Assembly (NCBI RefSeq): GCF_014898075.1
Contig: NZ_CP062976.1
Span: 1,178,001 to 1,242,000, forward strand
Length of the DNA stretch: 64,000 bases
Source of the DNA: Neisseria yangbaofengii
Lineage (GTDB): Bacteria > Pseudomonadota > Gammaproteobacteria > Burkholderiales > Neisseriaceae
Direction of reading: 5' to 3'
Shown here: positions 1 through 52,769 of the stretch, in pieces
Layout of the letters: each line of letters begins with the position of its first letter
Numbering within the stretch: position 1 is the first letter of the stretch
Translations under genes and position numbers: made by a program
Notes under the pieces: generated by a model
What the model saw: only the letters and a program-made list of their open reading frames with translations
Told to the model about the DNA's origin: nothing
Databases searched by the model: none

Positions 1-231
1 GTCGGCCTGAAGCCCTGCTGCCCACACGGGGCTGACAGCAGCCGAACCGACCGCCAGCCACACCGAGAACGCCGCCATCTGTATCTGAAACTTGGCCGCA
101 CCCGCAAGGCCGTCTGAAATAGCCGCTTTGCCGTCTTGCACGTTTTTACCGTCGCGTGCGGTGTTTTCGGCAACAGCCATCATCATGCCGCGCTTTTTAT
201 TGAAGATGACTTTGTAGCAGGTTTTGTTCAT
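1..231 (-). CDS. tpsA: TpsA-type two-partner secretion exoprotein, N-terminus (runs off the left edge)
   Basis: Only the first 77 codons are inside the window, all in one open frame. The protein starts MNKTCYKVIFNKKRG, which is the extended signal peptide region (ESPR) typical of very large secreted TpsA, hemagglutinin and CdiA-like proteins. A hydrophobic signal core follows (about residues 50-70) with a likely cleavage after SPVWA. The gene lies 70 nt downstream of tpsB on the same strand, the usual order for a two-partner secretion operon. The mature protein would be exported by Sec and moved across the outer membrane by TpsB. Whether it is an adhesin or a contact-dependent toxin cannot be told, because the rest is missing. 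A DUS (around 107-118) is read in frame as part of the signal region. Confidence 0.85.
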   Translation of the reverse strand, partial: MNKTCYKVIFNKKRGMMMAVAENTARDGKNVQDGKAAISDGLAGAAKFQIQMAAFSVWLAVGSAAVSPVWAAGLQAD

Positions 232-9048: not shown

Positions 9049-10122
9049 TCAAATCGAGTATTCGATCAATTCGTTTTGCGAAAAGATATAGATCTGTTTC
9101 GGCACCAAAGCCAGCTCTTTGCCCACGGACAAGGCCAAGCTGGCGGCATCGCTGCCGGCTAGGTTGATGTGCACGTCGCGGTTGTCGTGCTTGACGGTGA
9201 TATGGGTCAACGCGCCTACGGCGTGGATTTTTTCAACTGCGGCGGTGATCATCGGCGTTTGGCCTGTTTGGGCAATTTGCCATTCGTGCGGGCGGATATA
9301 GCCGGTGGCCAATTGTTCCTGCCATTTGTATTGGCGGTCAAGCGACCACCGGTAGCTGCCGTAATGCCACACGCCTTTTTCTATGCGGCCTTCAAAGGCA
9401 TCGGTTTCGCCCAGAAATTCGGTGACAAATGCGTTTTCCGGCTGGCGGTAAATGTGATCTGCGCTGCCGGTTTGCTCGATGTGGCCGTGGTTCATCACCA
9501 CGATTTCATCGGATACTTCCAAGGCTTCTTCTTGGTCGTGGGTGACGAGAATGCTGGTCACGCCGAGATTATGGTGAATGTCGCGCAGCCATGTACGCAA
9601 CTCTTTGCGAACTTTGGCATCAAGTGCGCCGAATGGTTCGTCCAACAGCAGCAATTTTGGCTCTACCGCTAATGCGCGCGCAAGGGCGATACGCTGGCGC
9701 TGGCCTCCTGAAAGCTGGTGCGGATAAGATTTGGCTAAATGAGAAAGCTGCACCAAGCCCAATAATTCTTCCACTTTGGCGCGGATTTTTTCTTTACCCG
9801 GGCGCTCGCTTTTCGGCAATACGGTCAAGCCGAAAGCTACGTTATCGAACACGTTCATGTGGCGGAACAAGGCGTAATGTTGGAATACGAAACCAACTTT
9901 GCGGTCGCGCACGTGTTTGTCGGTGACGTCTTGGCCGTCGAACAGGATTTTGCCATTGTCGGAAGTTTCCAGGCCGGCAATGATGCGCAACAGCGTGGTT
10001 TTGCCGCAGCCGGACGGGCCGAGCAGCGAAACCAGTTTGCCGGTCGGTACGTTTAGATTGATGTTTTTCAGTGCGTGGAAATTGCCGAAATGTTTGTTTA
10101 AGTTTTCAATGGTGATGCTCAT
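9049..10122 (-). CDS. cysA: sulfate/thiosulfate ABC transporter ATP-binding protein
   Basis: The 357-residue ATPase has Walker [10 protein letters not shown] near residue 37, signature LSGGQRQR, and Walker [13 protein letters not shown], followed by a C-terminal regulatory beta domain of about 110 residues as in CysA and MalK. It drives sulfate and thiosulfate uptake with CysT and CysW at the inner membrane. The start codon overlaps the cysW stop (ATGA), so the two are translationally coupled. It is the last gene of the operon. Confidence 0.95.
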
Positions 10123-10976
10123 GCGTTTCTCTCCGCTGCGGCGAGTTTTTTCTCTTGCATTTTGGTAATGAAGTTTTGTAAGGCTAGGGTGGTTAAGGCC
10201 AATAAGGCCAATACGCCGGATAGGGCAAAGGCGCCGGTAAAATTGTATTCGTTGTAAAAGATTTCCACCAAAAGCGGAATGGTGTTAGTTTCGCCGCGGA
10301 TATGGCCGGATACTACGCTGACGGCACCGAATTCGCCCATGGCACGCGCATTGGTCAGAATCACGCCGTAGAGTAATGCCCATTTGATATTGGGCAGGGT
10401 CACGCGCCAAAACATCTGCCAGCCGCTCGCACCTAAAATCAAGGCCGCCTGCTCTTCACTATCGCCTTGTGCCTGCATCAGCGGAATCAGTTCGCGCGCC
10501 ACAAACGGGAAGGTCACAAACAAAGTCGCCAACACGATGCCCGGGATGGCAAAAATAATCTGAATGCCCTGTGCTTCGAGCCGGCCACCCAAAGCGGTGT
10601 GTGCGCCGAACAGTAACACAAACATCAAACCGGCCACTACCGGCGACACGGAAAACGGCAAATCGAGCAAAGTAGTCAACAATTGTTTGCCACGGAAATC
10701 AAAGCGCGTGAGCAGCCAAGCCATGGCAATGCCCAACACGGCATTCACCGGCACCACAATGGCGGCGGTAATCAAGGTCAATTGAATGGCCGACCATGCT
10801 TCGGGATCGGTAATCGATTGCACATACAAATCCCAACCGCCTTTTAGGGCTTCGTAAAACACCGCCACCAGCGGCACAACCAGCATCACCAGCAGGAATA
10901 ACAAGGCAATCGCGGTTAAGGTCAAACGCAGCCAGCGCGGTTCGGTCAGATTTGGATTGGAAGAATGGGTTTGCAT
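10119..10976 (-). CDS. cysW: sulfate ABC transporter permease CysW
   Basis: The 285-residue inner-membrane permease has about six hydrophobic segments, beginning with [17 protein letters not shown], and the EAA loop around [17 protein letters not shown], which contacts CysA. It forms the channel with CysT. I place the start at 10976 (MQTHSSNP); a longer frame to 11039 would overlap the end of cysT and has no support. A 43-nt spacer with one DUS separates it from cysT. Confidence 0.93.
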
Positions 10977-11019
10977 AATGAATGTCTTTTTTCTATTCCA
11001 AAAGTTTTCAGACGGCCTA

Positions 11020-11856
11020 TCAGGCTTTGGCGCCGGCACGTTTGCTCAATGCCCATTGGGTCACGTTTAACGCAAACAAAATCGCAAACGAAATCATCAG
11101 CATAAACAATGCCACTGCCGATGCGCCCCGCACATCAAACTGTTCTAATTTGCCGGTAATAATCAGCGGCAAAATCTCGGAAACCATCGGAATATTGCCC
11201 GCAATAAAAATCACCGAGCCGTATTCGCCGGTGGCGCGGGCAAACATCATGCCGGCGCCGGTAATCAAGGCCGGCATAATTTCCGGCAGCAATACACGGC
11301 GGAAAGTGGTGAAGCGGTTGGCGCCCAAAGTAGCCGCTGCTTCTTCATATTCGCCCGATAATTCTTCCAACACCGGCTGCACGGCACGCACGATAAACGG
11401 CAGGCTTACTACCACCAGCGCAATCCAAATACCGATGGGCGTAAAGGCGATTTTGATGCCCAAAGGCTCGAACCATTGTCCAATCCAGCCATTCGGCGCA
11501 TATAAAGTTGCCAAGGCAATACCGGTGACGGCAGTAGGCAGGGCAAAGGGTAAATCCACCAACGCGTTGGCCAGACTTTTGCCCGGAAACTCATAGCGCA
11601 CCAACACCCACGCGGCTAAAGTACCGAACACGATATTGGTCAACATGGCGTAAAACGACATTTTCAGGCTCAGCCATACCGCTGCCAAAACGTTGGGTTC
11701 GGCAATGGTTTGCCAAAAAGCCGTCCAACCGATTTCGCCTGCTTTGGCGGCCATCATCGCAAACGGCAACACGACCAAAAGCGACAAGCACAACACGGTC
11801 AGCCCTAAGCTGATTTTAAAGCCCGGTAAGACGCTGGGGGTTTTCAGTAATAACAT
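11020..11856 (-). CDS. cysT: sulfate ABC transporter permease CysT (CysU)
   Basis: The 278-residue integral membrane permease starts near a hydrophobic segment (GLTVLCLSLLVVLPFAMMAA) and carries the EAA loop EYEEAAATLGANRFTTF. It is the first gene of cysT-cysW-cysA. No binding protein is encoded in the operon; two candidate sulfate-binding lipoproteins are at 49.9-52.1 kb. The shared sulfur promoter element lies about 35-100 nt upstream. Confidence 0.94.
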   Translation of the reverse strand: MLLLKTPSVLPGFKISLGLTVLCLSLLVVLPFAMMAAKAGEIGWTAFWQTIAEPNVLAAVWLSLKMSFYAMLTNIVFGTLAAWVLVRYEFPGKSLANALVDLPFALPTAVTGIALATLYAPNGWIGQWFEPLGIKIAFTPIGIWIALVVVSLPFIVRAVQPVLEELSGEYEEAAATLGANRFTTFRRVLLPEIMPALITGAGMMFARATGEYGSVIFIAGNIPMVSEILPLIITGKLEQFDVRGASAVALFMLMISFAILFALNVTQWALSKRAGAKA

Positions 11857-11888
11857 GGTTCGATAACAGAATAGTGATTACGGGCGTC

Positions 11889-11959
11889 ACTTTATAGAAG
11901 CCGTCTGAAAAAGGGAAAGAATGGTTTGTTTATTGCAAAGATGATTTTGTTATATATAT
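11889..11959 (-). promoter_or_regulatory. cysT promoter with shared sulfur-gene element (CysB candidate)
   Basis: On the minus strand, a TTATATATAAC-like block is followed 20 to 25 nt later by CATTCTTTCC (complement of 11914-11923), then 17 nt later by TATAAAGT (complement of 11889-11896) as a -10 box. The same order is found upstream of both sulfate-binding protein genes, and the first two blocks also occur upstream of cysH. CysB is the known activator of sulfate genes; its identity here is inferred. Confidence 0.6.
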
Positions 11960-11984
11960 GCTTGTGTGGAGGGGCTGAACGTAA

Positions 11985-12022
11985 AAAGGCCGTCTGAAAC
12001 CAATGTTTCAGACGGCCTTTAA
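11985..12022 (-). terminator. DUS hairpin terminator of trpD
   Basis: A 16-bp stem of inverted DUS copies (11985-12000 with 12005-12020) lies just after the trpD stop codon. Confidence 0.9.
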
Positions 12023-12032
12023 AGACAAAATG

Positions 12033-13064
12033 TTATGCAGCAAACTGTCGGCTAAATTCGATAAATTCTGCTTTTTTGGCTTGAGCTTTACCCGAATCAA
12101 TCGCTTCTTGCGCAGCTGCGGCACCATCGGCCAAAGAATCCACCACGTTGCCCGCATACAAGGCGGCAGCGGCGTTGAGTACCACGATATCGCGCGCGGC
12201 ACCGTGTTCGCCGTTTAAGACGGCATCCATTTTTTTGAGCGATTCTTCGCTGTTTTCCACGCGGATGTCGTCAAGGTTGCGGCGGATTTCCATGCCGAAA
12301 TCTTGCGGGTTGATATTGTATTCGCGGATGGTGCCGTCTTTTAATTCGGCCACGCGGGTATTGCCGGTGAGGGTGATTTCGTCCAAACCGCCTTCGCCGC
12401 ACACAACTAACACGTGTTTTGACCCCAATTGCTGCAACACGCGCGAAAGGATACCGCACAAATCAACGTGGAATACGCCCAAAAGCTGGTTCGGCGCACC
12501 TGCCGGATTGGTTAACGGCCCCAGAATATTGAAAATGCTGCGGAAACCGAGTGAGCGGCGCACCGGCGCAACATGGCGCATGGCGCTGTGGTGATTTTGT
12601 GCAAACATAAAACCGATACCGGTTCGTTCTATACTTTGGGCGACTTGCTCGGGCGTAACATTCAACACCGCGCCCATTTGCTCCATCACATCGGCCGCAC
12701 CGCTGGAAGATGATACCGATCGGCCGCCGTGTTTCGCAACTTTGGCACCGGCTGCGGCTGCAACAAACATGGCGGTGGTAGAGATGTTGAAGGTTTTCGC
12801 ACCATCACCGCCTGTACCGACGATGTCGACCAGGTTATCGGTATGGTTGACCGCTACTTTGGTAGAAAACTCACGCATCACTGCCGCTGCGGCCGTAATT
12901 TCGGAAACGGTTTCTACTTTGATGCGCAAGCCTGTCATAATCGCCGCGATTTGCTCCGGCGGCACTTGACCGCTCATGATTTGGCGCATCAAATCGGTCA
13001 TTTCATCGTAAAAAAGTTCGTTGTTGCTGATTAAACGTTCAATTGCCTGTTGCGGCGTAATCAT
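12033..13064 (-). CDS. trpD: anthranilate phosphoribosyltransferase
   Basis: The 343-residue enzyme has the PRPP-binding GTGGDG motif near residue 80, followed by [15 protein letters not shown], and LGPLTNPAG. It transfers phosphoribose to anthranilate, the second step of tryptophan synthesis. The start at 13064 ([11 protein letters not shown]) is preceded by GAAGGGAAA; the frame is open further upstream but would run into the next gene. It lies in the same direction as trpG about 0.9 kb upstream, with an unrelated membrane gene between them. Confidence 0.95.
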
Positions 13065-47335: not shown

Positions 47336-48070
47336 TTATTTGTGCAAACCGCACTCTTTGCTGTCTTTGCTTTCCCACCACCAACGCCCGGCACGGATTT
47401 TTTCATTTTCTTTTACCGGTCGGGTGCACGGTTCGCAGCCGATACTCGGATAGCCTTGGTGATATAAATCATTCAGCGGCACATCATGCTCTTGCGCATA
47501 AGCCCACACGTCCAATTCTTCCCAATCAAAAATCGGATTGAACTTAGCGATATTCCGGCCCGAATCATGCTCTTCAAAATTCAATTCGCTGCGCGTCTCC
47601 GACTGGCTGCGGCGTTGGCCGGTGATCCATGCGGGGGCGTTGTCCAAGGCGCGGTTGAGCGGTTCGATTTTGCGGATATGGCAGCATTGGCGGCGTAGTT
47701 CCACGCTGTCGTACATAGCGGTGGTGCCGAATTGCGCTTCAAAGGCTTGTGCATCGGCTTCAATCGGGCGGAACACTTCCAGTTTGATTTGATAACGCGC
47801 ATTGGCCGCGGCAATCAACGCTTCGGTTTCGGGATTGAGTTTGCCGGTGTTGAGCGTGATGATGCGGATGGGCAGCTTCAGACGGCATATCGTATCGGTA
47901 ATCACCATATCTTCAACTGCCAAGCTGGAGGCTAATACCGATTGCGGAGATTGTCCGGCAATCTCTTGCAAACGTTGTTCTAAAGTGGCGGTGAGTCGGG
48001 GCAGGCGTTGGCGCGCTTCGGCAGTCACTTCGGGAATTTTCCAGAAGTTCGGGCGGAAAAGTGAAGTCAT
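47336..48070 (-). CDS. cysH: adenylyl-sulfate (APS) reductase
   Basis: The 244-residue protein has the PP-loop-like fold of CysH (VLASSLAVEDMVITDTIC) and two Cys pairs, CC in RRQCCHIRKIEPL and CEPC in PSIGCEPCTRP, which bind a 4Fe-4S cluster. Those pairs mark APS reductases; PAPS reductases lack them. The catalytic Cys is in the C-terminal ECGLHK. It reduces APS to sulfite with thioredoxin. The shared sulfur promoter element lies about 100-130 nt upstream. Confidence 0.93.
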   Translation of the reverse strand: MTSLFRPNFWKIPEVTAEARQRLPRLTATLEQRLQEIAGQSPQSVLASSLAVEDMVITDTICRLKLPIRIITLNTGKLNPETEALIAAANARYQIKLEVFRPIEADAQAFEAQFGTTAMYDSVELRRQCCHIRKIEPLNRALDNAPAWITGQRRSQSETRSELNFEEHDSGRNIAKFNPIFDWEELDVWAYAQEHDVPLNDLYHQGYPSIGCEPCTRPVKENEKIRAGRWWWESKDSKECGLHK

Positions 48071-48167
48071 GGCAGGAGTTCCTTATTGTGTTTCAGGCGG
48101 CCTTTGCATGATTCAAGGCCGTCTGAACATTATTGTCATGCCCTCATTGTCCGCCTATAGCAGACCG

Positions 48168-48205
48168 AAAGGAAAGAATGCTTTTCTATTTCTTTATAAC
48201 CAAAG
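48168..48205 (-). promoter_or_regulatory. sulfur-gene element upstream of cysH (CysB candidate)
   Basis: On the minus strand, GGTTATAAAGAAATAG is followed closely by CATTCTTTCC (complement of 48171-48180). The spacing between the two blocks is shorter than at the other three genes. The element overlaps the end of dinB. TATAGG 11 nt further on, or GACAAT, could be the -10 box; this is less clear than elsewhere. Confidence 0.45.
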
Positions 48206-49912: not shown

Positions 49913-50968
49913 TTATTTCTTAGGCGAGAGTTGGTCCACCAAACCGCCGTCGGCGAAATATTTCTTCATGATGTCTTCCCACGAGCCGAATTTTTCGTTT
50001 GGCGTGAAGGTTTCGATGGCCGGGAAATCGGCTTGGTGCTTGGCCAATATGCCGGCATTACGCGGGCGAAGGTAGAGTTTGGCAGCCAATTCTTGCGCCG
50101 GTTCGCTCCACAGATATTCCAAATATTCTTTGGCGGCTTCCTGCGTGCCTTTTTTGCCAACCACAGAATCAACCACGGCAACCGGGCTTTCCGACAAAAT
50201 GGTGTAGCTCGGGTAAACGATTTCAAATTGGTCTTGGGTCAGTTTTTTGCTGACGTGGTTGGCTTCGTTTTCAAAAGTTACCAATACGTCGCCAATGTTG
50301 CGTTGGCTGAAGCTGGTGGTGGCTGCGCGGCCGCCGTTTTCAAATACAGGGGCGTTTTTCAAGAAGGCGGCGACAAATTCGTTGGTTTTGGCTTCATTGC
50401 CGTTGTTCACTTTCAAGCCGTAGCCGTATGCGCCCAAGAAGGCGTAGCGGCCGTTGCCAGTAGTTTTCGGGTTGGCCAATACGATTTGCACGCCGTCTTT
50501 GGTTAAGTCGTTCCAGTCTTGAATCTGCTTCGGATTGCCTTTGCGCACCAAGAAGACGGTGGTGCTGGTAAACGGCACAGCGTTATCCGGCAGGCGTTGC
50601 GCCCAATCGTTTTTCACCAAGCCTTTTTGTTCCAGCAATTCGATGTCGGAAGTTTGGTTCATGGTCACCACATCGGCCGCCAATCCGTTGGCAACAGACA
50701 AAGCCTGCTTGCTCGAGCCGCCGTGTGACTGCTGCACATCGATTTCCGTGCCATTGTGTTTGGCTTGGTATTCTTTGATAAACAGCGGGTTGTATTCTTT
50801 ATAGAAATCGCGTGCCACATCGTAAGACACGTTCAAAAGGGTAATGCCTTTGCCGTTGGCGGCAGGTGCGGCGGCATTGCCGCCGGCGGCTTTTTCTTCT
50901 TTCGGTGTGCAGGCGGTTAAGGCTACGGAAGCGGCGATGGCGGCAAGGGTCAGGTTACGGATGGTCAT
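49913..50968 (-). CDS. sbp: sulfate-binding lipoprotein (Sbp), copy 1
   Basis: The 351-residue protein has a signal peptide with lipobox LTAC (Cys20), so it is a lipoprotein rather than the free periplasmic form of enteric bacteria. The binding-protein core is that of Sbp/CysP: LLNVSYDVARDFYKEYNPLF, QQSHGGSSKQALSVANG, TTSFSQRNIGDVLVTFENEA. It delivers sulfate or thiosulfate to CysTWA. The ribosome site is AAGGAGCC. The shared sulfur promoter lies upstream. Confidence 0.94.
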   Translation of the reverse strand: MTIRNLTLAAIAASVALTACTPKEEKAAGGNAAAPAANGKGITLLNVSYDVARDFYKEYNPLFIKEYQAKHNGTEIDVQQSHGGSSKQALSVANGLAADVVTMNQTSDIELLEQKGLVKNDWAQRLPDNAVPFTSTTVFLVRKGNPKQIQDWNDLTKDGVQIVLANPKTTGNGRYAFLGAYGYGLKVNNGNEAKTNEFVAAFLKNAPVFENGGRAATTSFSQRNIGDVLVTFENEANHVSKKLTQDQFEIVYPSYTILSESPVAVVDSVVGKKGTQEAAKEYLEYLWSEPAQELAAKLYLRPRNAGILAKHQADFPAIETFTPNEKFGSWEDIMKKYFADGGLVDQLSPKK

Positions 50969-50995: not shown

Positions 50996-51064
50996 ACTTT
51001 ATACCGTCTGATTGAGCGTGAGAAATAATGTTTGATTTGGTGATTATCAGTTTTGGTTATAAGT
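50996..51064 (-). promoter_or_regulatory. promoter of sbp copy 1 with shared sulfur-gene element
   Basis: On the minus strand: CTTATAACCAAAAC, then CATTATTTCT (complement of 51021-51030, two mismatches from the element), then after 17 nt TATAAAGT (complement of 50996-51003). The layout equals that of cysT. Confidence 0.6.
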
Positions 51065-51103: not shown

Positions 51104-52129
51104 TTACTTCGCTGTAGTGGTCAATTCGTCAAACATACTGCCGTCAGCAAAAAATTTCTGCATGATATGCGGCCATGCCCCCAAGGTTTCGTCGGGGCGG
51201 AAGGTTTCCAAATCGGGAAAATCGGCATGATTGGCGGACAAAATGGATTTGTCGCTCGGACGGAAGTAAAGTTCGGCCGCTAATTTCTGCGCAGGCTTGC
51301 TCCATAAAAATGCCAGGTATTCTTTGGAAATGGCTTCGGAATCTTTTTTTTCGGCCACGCTGTCGACCACGGCTACGGGGGTTTGCGCTTCGACGGTGTA
51401 GCTTGGGTAAACGATGTCGAATTGGTCGGGCGCAAGGTGGCGGCTGACGAAATTGGCTTCGTTTTCCAAGGTAATCAACACGTCGCCGATTTGGCGTTGG
51501 GTGAAGCTGGTGGTCGCCGCGCGACTGCCGTTTTCAAACATCGGCACATTATTCAGCAGTTTGCGCATAAAGTTTTTCGCATCGGCTTCGTTGCCGTTAT
51601 TTGCTTTCAAGCCGTAGCCGTATGCACCCAGGAAGGCATAGCGGCCGTTGCCGCTGGTTTTCGGGTTGGCGAACACGACTTGGACGTTGTCACGTGCCAA
51701 ATCTGTCCAATCGTAAATCTGCTGCGGATTGCCTTTACGCACGAGAAAGACGGTTACGCTGGAAAAAGGCACGGCGTTATTCGGCAAGCGTTGCGCCCAA
51801 TCAGACTTGACCAAGCCGCGTTGCTTCAGTAAATCAATGTCGGAGGTTTGGTTCATGGTCACCACGTCGGCGGGCAAACCGTTGGCCACCGACATGGCCT
51901 GTTTGCTCGAGCCGCCGTGTGATTGTTGGATATGCAAATCGATGTGCGGATGGTTTTTGCGGAAATGTTCGATAAACAAAGGGTTATACGCTTTGAAAAA
52001 ATCGCGCGATACGTCATAGGAAACGTTGAGAATTTTCTTATATTGGTCTTTTTCGGTATTGGTTTTGCCGCTGCCGCAAGCAGCCAAAGACAGTGCGGTT
52101 AAGGCGATGATAAAGCGGATTTTGTCCAT
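51104..52129 (-). CDS. sbp: sulfate-binding lipoprotein (Sbp), copy 2
   Basis: The 341-residue paralogue has lipobox LSLAAC (Cys18) and the same core motifs as copy 1 (LNVSYDVSRDFFKAYNPLF, QQSHGGSSKQAMSVANG, TTSFTQRQIGDVLITLENEA). The two copies are clearly similar but diverged, so the duplication is not recent. Different affinity for sulfate, thiosulfate or another oxyanion is possible. Start at 52129 (MDKIRF) by signal peptide and AAGGAAC site. It has its own promoter and terminator. Confidence 0.93.
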   Translation of the reverse strand: MDKIRFIIALTALSLAACGSGKTNTEKDQYKKILNVSYDVSRDFFKAYNPLFIEHFRKNHPHIDLHIQQSHGGSSKQAMSVANGLPADVVTMNQTSDIDLLKQRGLVKSDWAQRLPNNAVPFSSVTVFLVRKGNPQQIYDWTDLARDNVQVVFANPKTSGNGRYAFLGAYGYGLKANNGNEADAKNFMRKLLNNVPMFENGSRAATTSFTQRQIGDVLITLENEANFVSRHLAPDQFDIVYPSYTVEAQTPVAVVDSVAEKKDSEAISKEYLAFLWSKPAQKLAAELYFRPSDKSILSANHADFPDLETFRPDETLGAWPHIMQKFFADGSMFDELTTTAK

Positions 52130-52163: not shown

Positions 52164-52238
52164 ACTTTAATCGGCAGGAGACAAAAAAGGAAAGAATGGT
52201 TGATTGTATCGAAAGGATTTTTGGTTATATATTTTATA
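52164..52238 (-). promoter_or_regulatory. promoter of sbp copy 2 with shared sulfur-gene element
   Basis: On the minus strand: ATATAACCAAAAATCC, then about 16 nt later CATTCTTTCC (complement of 52189-52198), then after 18 nt TTAAAGT (complement of 52164-52170). The same order and near-identical words are found upstream of cysT. Confidence 0.6.
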
Positions 52239-52286: not shown

Positions 52287-52769
52287 CTATACATATTTGC
52301 GCATTAATTCGCATTTGACTTTGACTTGTTCGTTTAAGGGCAGCGCCGCTTCGCCTAAGGATTCGTAACCGTTTAAGCGGTAAAACGGCACCGAATTGAG
52401 CGAAGCATAGAGTTTTAAAAAACTCAAGCCCGCGTTGTGCGCCAATTCTTCGGCCCGCTGCAACAGCGCCGTACCCAAGCCTTTGTTGTGCATTAAGGGA
52501 TGGACATAAAGCGCGTCAAGCTGCGCTTCTTTGAAATCGACTTGGAAAAAGCCTTGAATCACGCCACGGTATTCTACTACCCACAAAGCCTTGGTTTTAT
52601 CCGCCATTGTGGCGTGATAGCTTTCCATGCCGAGCAATTCTTCCCATGCCTGCAACACGCGTTCGTTATAGCTGCGGATGCAGGTGTATTGTACGGCATG
52701 CAGATGCGCGCTGTGAATGAAGGGGCAGTCTTTTTCGGTAGCGGGACGAAGCACAGTGAGTAGATTCAT
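52287..52769 (-). CDS. GNAT-family N-acetyltransferase
   Basis: The protein of about 160 residues has the acetyl-CoA-binding pattern of GNAT enzymes: LDALYVHPLMHNKGLGTALL (motif A, with the Q/R-x-x-G-x-G/A loop as NKGLGT) and LSFLKLYASLNSVPFYRLNG-Y (motif B). Substrate unknown. The ATG at 52769 is used; a GTG start 12 nt upstream is possible. It is upstream of sbp copy 2 but has a DUS hairpin between, so it is likely separate. Confidence 0.85.
   Translation of the reverse strand: MNLLTVLRPATEKDCPFIHSAHLHAVQYTCIRSYNERVLQAWEELLGMESYHATMADKTKALWVVEYRGVIQGFFQVDFKEAQLDALYVHPLMHNKGLGTALLQRAEELAHNAGLSFLKLYASLNSVPFYRLNGYESLGEAALPLNEQVKVKCELMRKYV

Follow-up and report, generated by a model that had tools for sequence, protein, structure and literature searches.

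A strict 41-bp element upstream of the sulfate-assimilation genes of Neisseria is a predicted activating site of CysB

We found that most sulfate-assimilation genes of Neisseria are preceded by a rigid 41-bp element, which is predicted to be an activating site of the LysR-type regulator CysB, with CysB as the inferred binder. The sites appear to define one sulfate-assimilation regulon of nine promoters, eight of them with the canonical element (cysN, cysD, cysI, cysJ, cysTWA, sbp1, sbp2 and cysG) and one, that of cysH, with a variant. The CysB site and the nine-promoter regulon, taken as one reading, are held with good confidence.

The element in the window and in the genome

In the window (the whole 64-kb stretch of DNA that was analysed), cysT, sbp1 and sbp2 are each preceded on the minus strand by one 41-bp element, TATAACnAAA-N21-CATTCTTTCC (Table 1). 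A -10-like hexamer, TAAAGT, begins 20 nt past the element at all three genes. The initial annotation had described two blocks upstream of these genes, with a -10 box 17-18 nt further on and 52-60 nt to the start codons. Both blocks were found where it had placed them, as parts of the 41-bp element. The -10 box follows after 17 nt at cysT (TATAAAGT, 11896-11889, minus strand), 18 nt at sbp1 and 17 nt at sbp2, and the distance from the end of the element to the start codon was measured as 57, 59 and 52 nt, respectively. The sbp1 start was put at 52129 and not at 52294, because the promoter falls inside the longest sbp1 reading frame. The shared promoter element of the three genes is confirmed, and the observation reaches further than first described. 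When the 64 kb was scanned with a matrix of 73 elements, the three sites, which are themselves among the 73 training rows, scored 34.7-51.8, and the next best of 127,918 scanning windows scored 13.1.

Table 1. Sulfate-gene promoter features in the window (positions are those of the window)
Feature	Position	Strand	Remarks
cysT 41-bp element	11914..11954	-	Distal box TATAACAAAA, proximal box end CATTCTTTCC; exact match; matrix score 51.8
cysT promoter, DNA uptake sequence in spacer	11900..11909	-	TTCAGACGGC
cysT promoter, putative -10-like TAAAGT	11889..11894	-	Offset +20..25 conserved in alignment
cysT-cysW-cysA, sulfate ABC transporter genes downstream of element	9049..11856	-	TIGR02139 CysT, TIGR02140 CysW, TIGR00968 sulfate ABC ATPase
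cysH 33-bp variant element	48171..48203	-	Inverted distal word TTGGTTATAA (48203-48194); canonical proximal box (48180-48171)
cysH promoter, putative -10-like GACAAT	48146..48151	-	Same -10 offset as canonical
cysH, (phospho)adenylyl-sulfate reductase	47336..48070	-	
sbp2 41-bp element	51021..51061	-	CATTATTTCT form; TATAAAGT 17 nt later
sbp2 promoter, putative -10-like TAAAGT	50996..51001	-	
sbp2, sulfate-binding protein	49913..50968	-	TIGR00971
sbp1 41-bp element	52189..52229	-	TTAAAGT 18 nt later
sbp1 promoter, putative -10-like TAAAGT	52164..52169	-	
sbp1, sulfate-binding protein, 341 aa	51104..52129	-	TIGR00971

Searches of the 2.65-Mb genome that holds the window gave few matches outside these three. 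With gaps of 15-25 allowed, the two-block pattern matched 7 times, every time with a gap of 21 (reversed control 0), and the pattern with fixed spacing and up to three mismatches matched 8 times (reversed control 1). All eight matches precede sulfate-assimilation genes: cysN, cysD, cysI, cysJ, cysTWA, sbp1, sbp2 and cysG. The gene names, at first assigned by eye, were confirmed with family models; for cysI and cysJ, the pieces used in this step were truncated by the locus end. An equally frequent motif upstream of genes unrelated to sulfur, which would have refuted the initial proposal, was thus not found. The eight canonical sites lie at separate places over ~450 kb, except for those of sbp1 and sbp2, which are separated by 1.2 kb.

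The exact proximal box, MAASCATTCTTTCC, occurs 7 times in the genome, before cysN, cysD, cysI, cysJ, cysT, sbp1 and cysH. Boxes with one mismatch were found at 9 other places; they are at chance level, since 8 matches with no more than one mismatch were obtained for the reversed control. One of the nine, at 751572, belongs to a half-matching element (score 24.6) before an NtaA/DmoA-family monooxygenase gene; it was left out of the regulon because the orthologues in two genomes have no element (scores 8.9 and 1.6). The frame of this monooxygenase gene (G000:C1:751572-751906) is broken after 90 codons. The sulfate genes themselves are scattered over G000:C1 795540-1245722 (cysN, cysD, cysI, cysJ, cysTWA, cysH, sbp2/sbp1, cysG), and all eight canonical elements are on the minus strand of the contig.

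The anatomy of the element was read from an alignment of 73 distinct copies, from which identical duplicates and two copies from outside Neisseriaceae (L063, L071) had been left out. Conservation extends to positions that were open in the search pattern (T16 99%, A26 96%, A29 97%, A30 92%; n=73). A run of T follows immediately 3' of the element, and TAAAGT or TACAGT at +20..25 is conserved. The start codon lies 36-135 nt past the element, mostly 50-65. When the 41 bp were compared with themselves, a 21-bp direct repeat was highest both in sum (5.26) and in mean; shifts of 4 and 5 reached 5.23 and 4.69, sums that run over more columns and give a low mean, and the best inverted arrangement gave 2.60. 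The pattern repeated at the 21-bp shift is AACnAA-N5-yTTT (column permutation over shifts 15-26, p = 0.023).

The place of the -35 box reads TTCCCT in the alignment, with three of the six letters of TTGACA. A sigma-70 scan of the cysT region (11840-12060) found no promoter pair, a result of little weight because shuffled sequences average only 0.4. By sequence, the presence of a -10 together with a poor -35 fits a sigma-70 promoter that would depend on an activator, and the earlier suggestion of activator-dependent promoters is consistent with this. If the first base of TAAAGT is taken as -12, the element would span about -72 to -32, with its centre at ~-52.

Conservation of the element and the cysH variant

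At least one match with up to two mismatches was found in 44 of 46 Neisseria genomes, with no control matches. The 46 genomes together hold 205 matches at this threshold, a few of them by chance. We collected 92 rows from the window's own genome, from 30 loci (one per genome, in 30 Neisseria genomes) and from 41 stretches of a species scan; the rows include repeats, since sbp1 and sbp2 appear in both of the overlapping loci L006 and L007 and some species were drawn from two collections. A sulfate gene follows in 89 of the 92 rows, in 88 as the first downstream reading frame and in one as a cysJ farther off. One row stands before a 17-residue cysT remnant, and two are from outside Neisseriaceae (a Cyclobacteriaceae bin and Halanaerobacter). 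Among the matches listed, 20 with two mismatches and without a locus (19 in Neisseria, 1 in another genus) were fetched separately; a sulfate gene follows in 16 of these, in one case recognised solely by a partial match of 43 residues to cysI.

An exact scan of 84,980 species, which may omit the window's own genome and very near genomes, returned 41 stretches: 33 from Neisseria, 5 from Bergeriella, 1 from Snodgrassella (before cysI) and 2 unrelated. Other genera of Neisseriaceae gave one or two matches in 8 of 37 genomes, against 2 of 37 for the reversed control. The one match read in these genera (L191) has no sulfate gene behind the element, and no element was found upstream of cysD in 16 loci of other Neisseriaceae genera (best score 4.6). 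Conservation at orthologous genes in related genomes, on which the initial proposal had been made to depend, was found across the genus. The operator is unusually strict and nearly genus-specific, and the regulon is ordinary by function. Elements are fewer where the reduction pathway has been lost, their number averaging 5.31 in the 36 genomes with cysH and 1.40 in the 10 without (p = 0.00012, with kinship ignored and incomplete genomes included). Some genomes with an intact CysB and cysH hold only 1-3 elements.

The initial annotation had linked cysH to the other genes by the first two blocks, set at a shorter spacing. This link holds, by way of a variant layout: the proximal box and the -10 offset are common to both, but there is no canonical element, the distal word is inverted and nearer, and the shorter spacing amounts to a second architecture. 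None of the 92 element rows belongs to cysH, and all 30 fetched cysH loci differ from the canonical element at no fewer than five fixed positions. In 21 of these 30 Neisseria loci we found instead TTGGTTATAA-N13-CATTCTTTCC or a close form, always 33 bp long. At +20..25, these 21 loci carry GACAAT (15), CACAAT (1), GAAAAT (3) or a hexamer shifted by one base (2). In six further loci (L116, L130, L132-L135) the words are looser and the layout is recognisable by eye, and three (L129, L131, L136) are without it. In the window's own genome, the 3' end of dinB extends into the distal word. Coding for dinB alone seems not to explain the word, because it is kept, as judged by eye, in three loci where the upstream sequence differs (L122, L126, L127).

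CysB as the candidate regulator

CysB was found in all 46 Neisseria genomes (two with broken frames) and in 81 of 83 genomes across the family. The CysB of the window's genome shares 52% identity with its E. coli counterpart; in the DNA-binding domain 43 of the 65 residues are identical, and the TSQPGISKQ stretch is unchanged. It lies above the cut-off of the CysB-family model and slightly below that of the CysB equivalog model (418 vs 436 bits). Co-occurrence fails to single out CysB, because the protein is near universal in the family and the element is not. In 10 loci, the 300 nt that precede cysB hold no canonical element: scores there reach at most 11.9, and the lowest of the 73 elements scores 25.4. 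The two genomes with a broken cysB frame (G016, G020) hold two elements each, with 1-2 mismatches, and in G016 a cysT remnant lies behind one of the two.

Two features of the element fit an activating site of CysB. Its putative centre at ~-52, estimated from the placement of TAAAGT, is upstream of the -35 region, and its copies stand before genes of sulfate uptake and reduction, at 8 of 8 sites in the genome and in 89 of 92 rows, with a cysT remnant in one more row. The CysB-type operator proposed at the outset is therefore supported by conserved sites at sulfate genes and by a CysB orthologue, and it is from these that we infer CysB to be the binder. A CysB tetramer would cover about -72 to -32, centred at ~-52, its DNA-binding domains arranged in two pairs that would contact the distal and the proximal box, respectively, two helical turns (21 bp) apart. 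Under sulfur limitation and with N-acetylserine bound, CysB would then recruit RNA polymerase.

The same sites could serve as a sulfur-limitation operator read by some other regulator, for example another LysR-type protein, with CysB uninvolved. The genome offers candidates: the LysR substrate domain is matched 14 times, once by a short fragment, and one LysR gene (L020, G000:C1:854346-854942) is the immediate downstream neighbour of cysD, in the same orientation. We rejected this neighbour as the binder: it was not found in any fetched locus of another genome, including loci with cysD, whereas the element occurs throughout the genus. CysB is the only candidate to unite a genus-wide presence, which was shown for CysB alone among the LysR proteins, with a known role at this class of genes. 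We therefore consider a different regulator improbable.

CysB sites of E. coli and Salmonella (cysJIH, cysK, cysP) resemble the predicted CysB sites of Neisseria in gene class and in centre, the activating sites of E. coli being centred 50-60 bp upstream of the transcription start according to the 2024 CysB structure paper (PMC11329422), compared with ~-52 here. This paper describes the enteric consensus as very weak, with sites that could not be assigned with high confidence and half-sites that vary in number, orientation and position, and doubts the 19-bp half-site (PMC11329422). The Neisseria sites, in contrast, have a strong consensus and rigid spacing throughout the genus. The canonical copies also look like two boxes repeated in the same direction every 21 bp, whereas the activating sites of E. 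coli are described as convergent half-sites (PMC11329422).

Related words are held by upstream regions of E. coli, CATTATTTCC at cysK, 97 nt before the start codon, and TTTGGTTATTAG at cysJ. We scanned three chosen cys regions of E. coli with our matrices. The best of 93,886 scanning windows for the distal-box matrix falls in the stretch that separates cysJ from queD, in inverted orientation with respect to cysJ, and the full matrix placed sites upstream of cysP and cysK 12th and 15th of 93,760. Five CysB-target upstream regions compared with 15 others gave p = 0.04 with the full matrix, and p = 0.10 and p = 0.15 with the two half-box matrices; the upstream regions of two genes outside the cys group, queD and casA, outscored all five targets. 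The resemblance of the Neisseria element to E. coli sequences is modest. With a matrix of the cysH type, a cysK site ranked 3rd of 99,728 windows and, with flexible spacing, a cysJ site ranked 4th of 299,184 placements; the top ranks in both scans are not cys promoters, and these positions are suggestive only. LysR-type operators of the T-N11-A kind have in common with the Neisseria element two boxes upstream of an activator-dependent promoter. By eye, the extended LysR consensus CTATA-n9-TATAG, as given in PMC5002191, is not spelled by the Neisseria boxes.

A literature search restricted to openly licensed papers returned no title on a CysB site or on the 41-bp element in Neisseria. The element offers a simple signature by which the sulfate regulon of this genus can be recognised from sequence. 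With ~200 similar sites of fixed geometry in one genus and a natural inverted variant at cysH, the DNA code of CysB and the geometry of its tetramer become directly testable.

A DNA uptake sequence in the spacer

A DNA uptake 10-mer lies within 40 nt past the element in 49 of the 73 distinct promoters, 43 of which have it at offset +5, in one orientation. The form of the word varies between species. The mucDUS form is found in 4 of 6 promoters of N. sicca and 5 of 7 of Neisseria sp. HMSC077D05, two genomes whose fetched loci contain mucDUS and DUS in ratios of 58:0 and 64:1. AG/AT-DUS is present in 23 of 27 promoters from six genomes with the AG/AT dialect, and wadDUS in 1 of 8 promoters from four wadDUS genomes. 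The single Snodgrassella promoter has no uptake sequence. The uptake word in the spacer follows the species' own dialect. Promoters without the uptake word keep both boxes and the -10, so the word is not needed for the promoter layout.

These near-identical copies at many loci, two thirds of them with an uptake sequence, could suggest that the blocks are a dispersed repeat, or a repeat derived from the uptake sequence, that came to lie upstream of these genes by chance. In its simple form this is refuted by the restriction of the element, in the window's own genome, to sulfate genes. Its orientation and its spacing to the -10 are moreover fixed, with the start codon at the distances given above, and both boxes and the -10 persist in copies that have no uptake sequence. 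Among the 96 uptake sequences of the window, only two, one of them at cysT, have a -10-like hexamer 4-6 nt behind them. A repeat origin is thus very improbable. A transcribed leader element (riboswitch or attenuator) has nothing in its favour beyond the position upstream of genes, and is less probable still: since the element precedes the -10-like hexamer, a transcript from this promoter would not include it, and for the cysT region (11700-12200) no Rfam match exceeded its gathering score, the two weak matches obtained being far below theirs.

The fixed offset of the uptake sequence could come from shared promoter ancestry, and its match to the dialect could come from selection for uptake. A bolder idea, which we put forward only tentatively and think rather unlikely, is that the ~66-bp unit of operator, uptake sequence and -10 is a promoter cassette. 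An ancestral CysB promoter with its uptake sequence would have been copied before each of the scattered sulfate genes, and the uptake word kept and rewritten in each dialect, with the promoter and the transformation signal evolving in concert.

Uptake sequences are reportedly placed in transcriptional terminators, to judge by the title of one cited reference. The dialect names used here (AG/AT-DUS, mucDUS, wadDUS) are those of PMC3630211, and the word 'promoter' is absent from its main text. The likeness to the described dialects is a 10-mer of the host dialect in the spacer; the difference is that it occupies one main offset inside a promoter. With an uptake sequence that lies between an operator and a -10 hexamer and matches the dialect of its host, promoter and transformation signal unexpectedly overlap.
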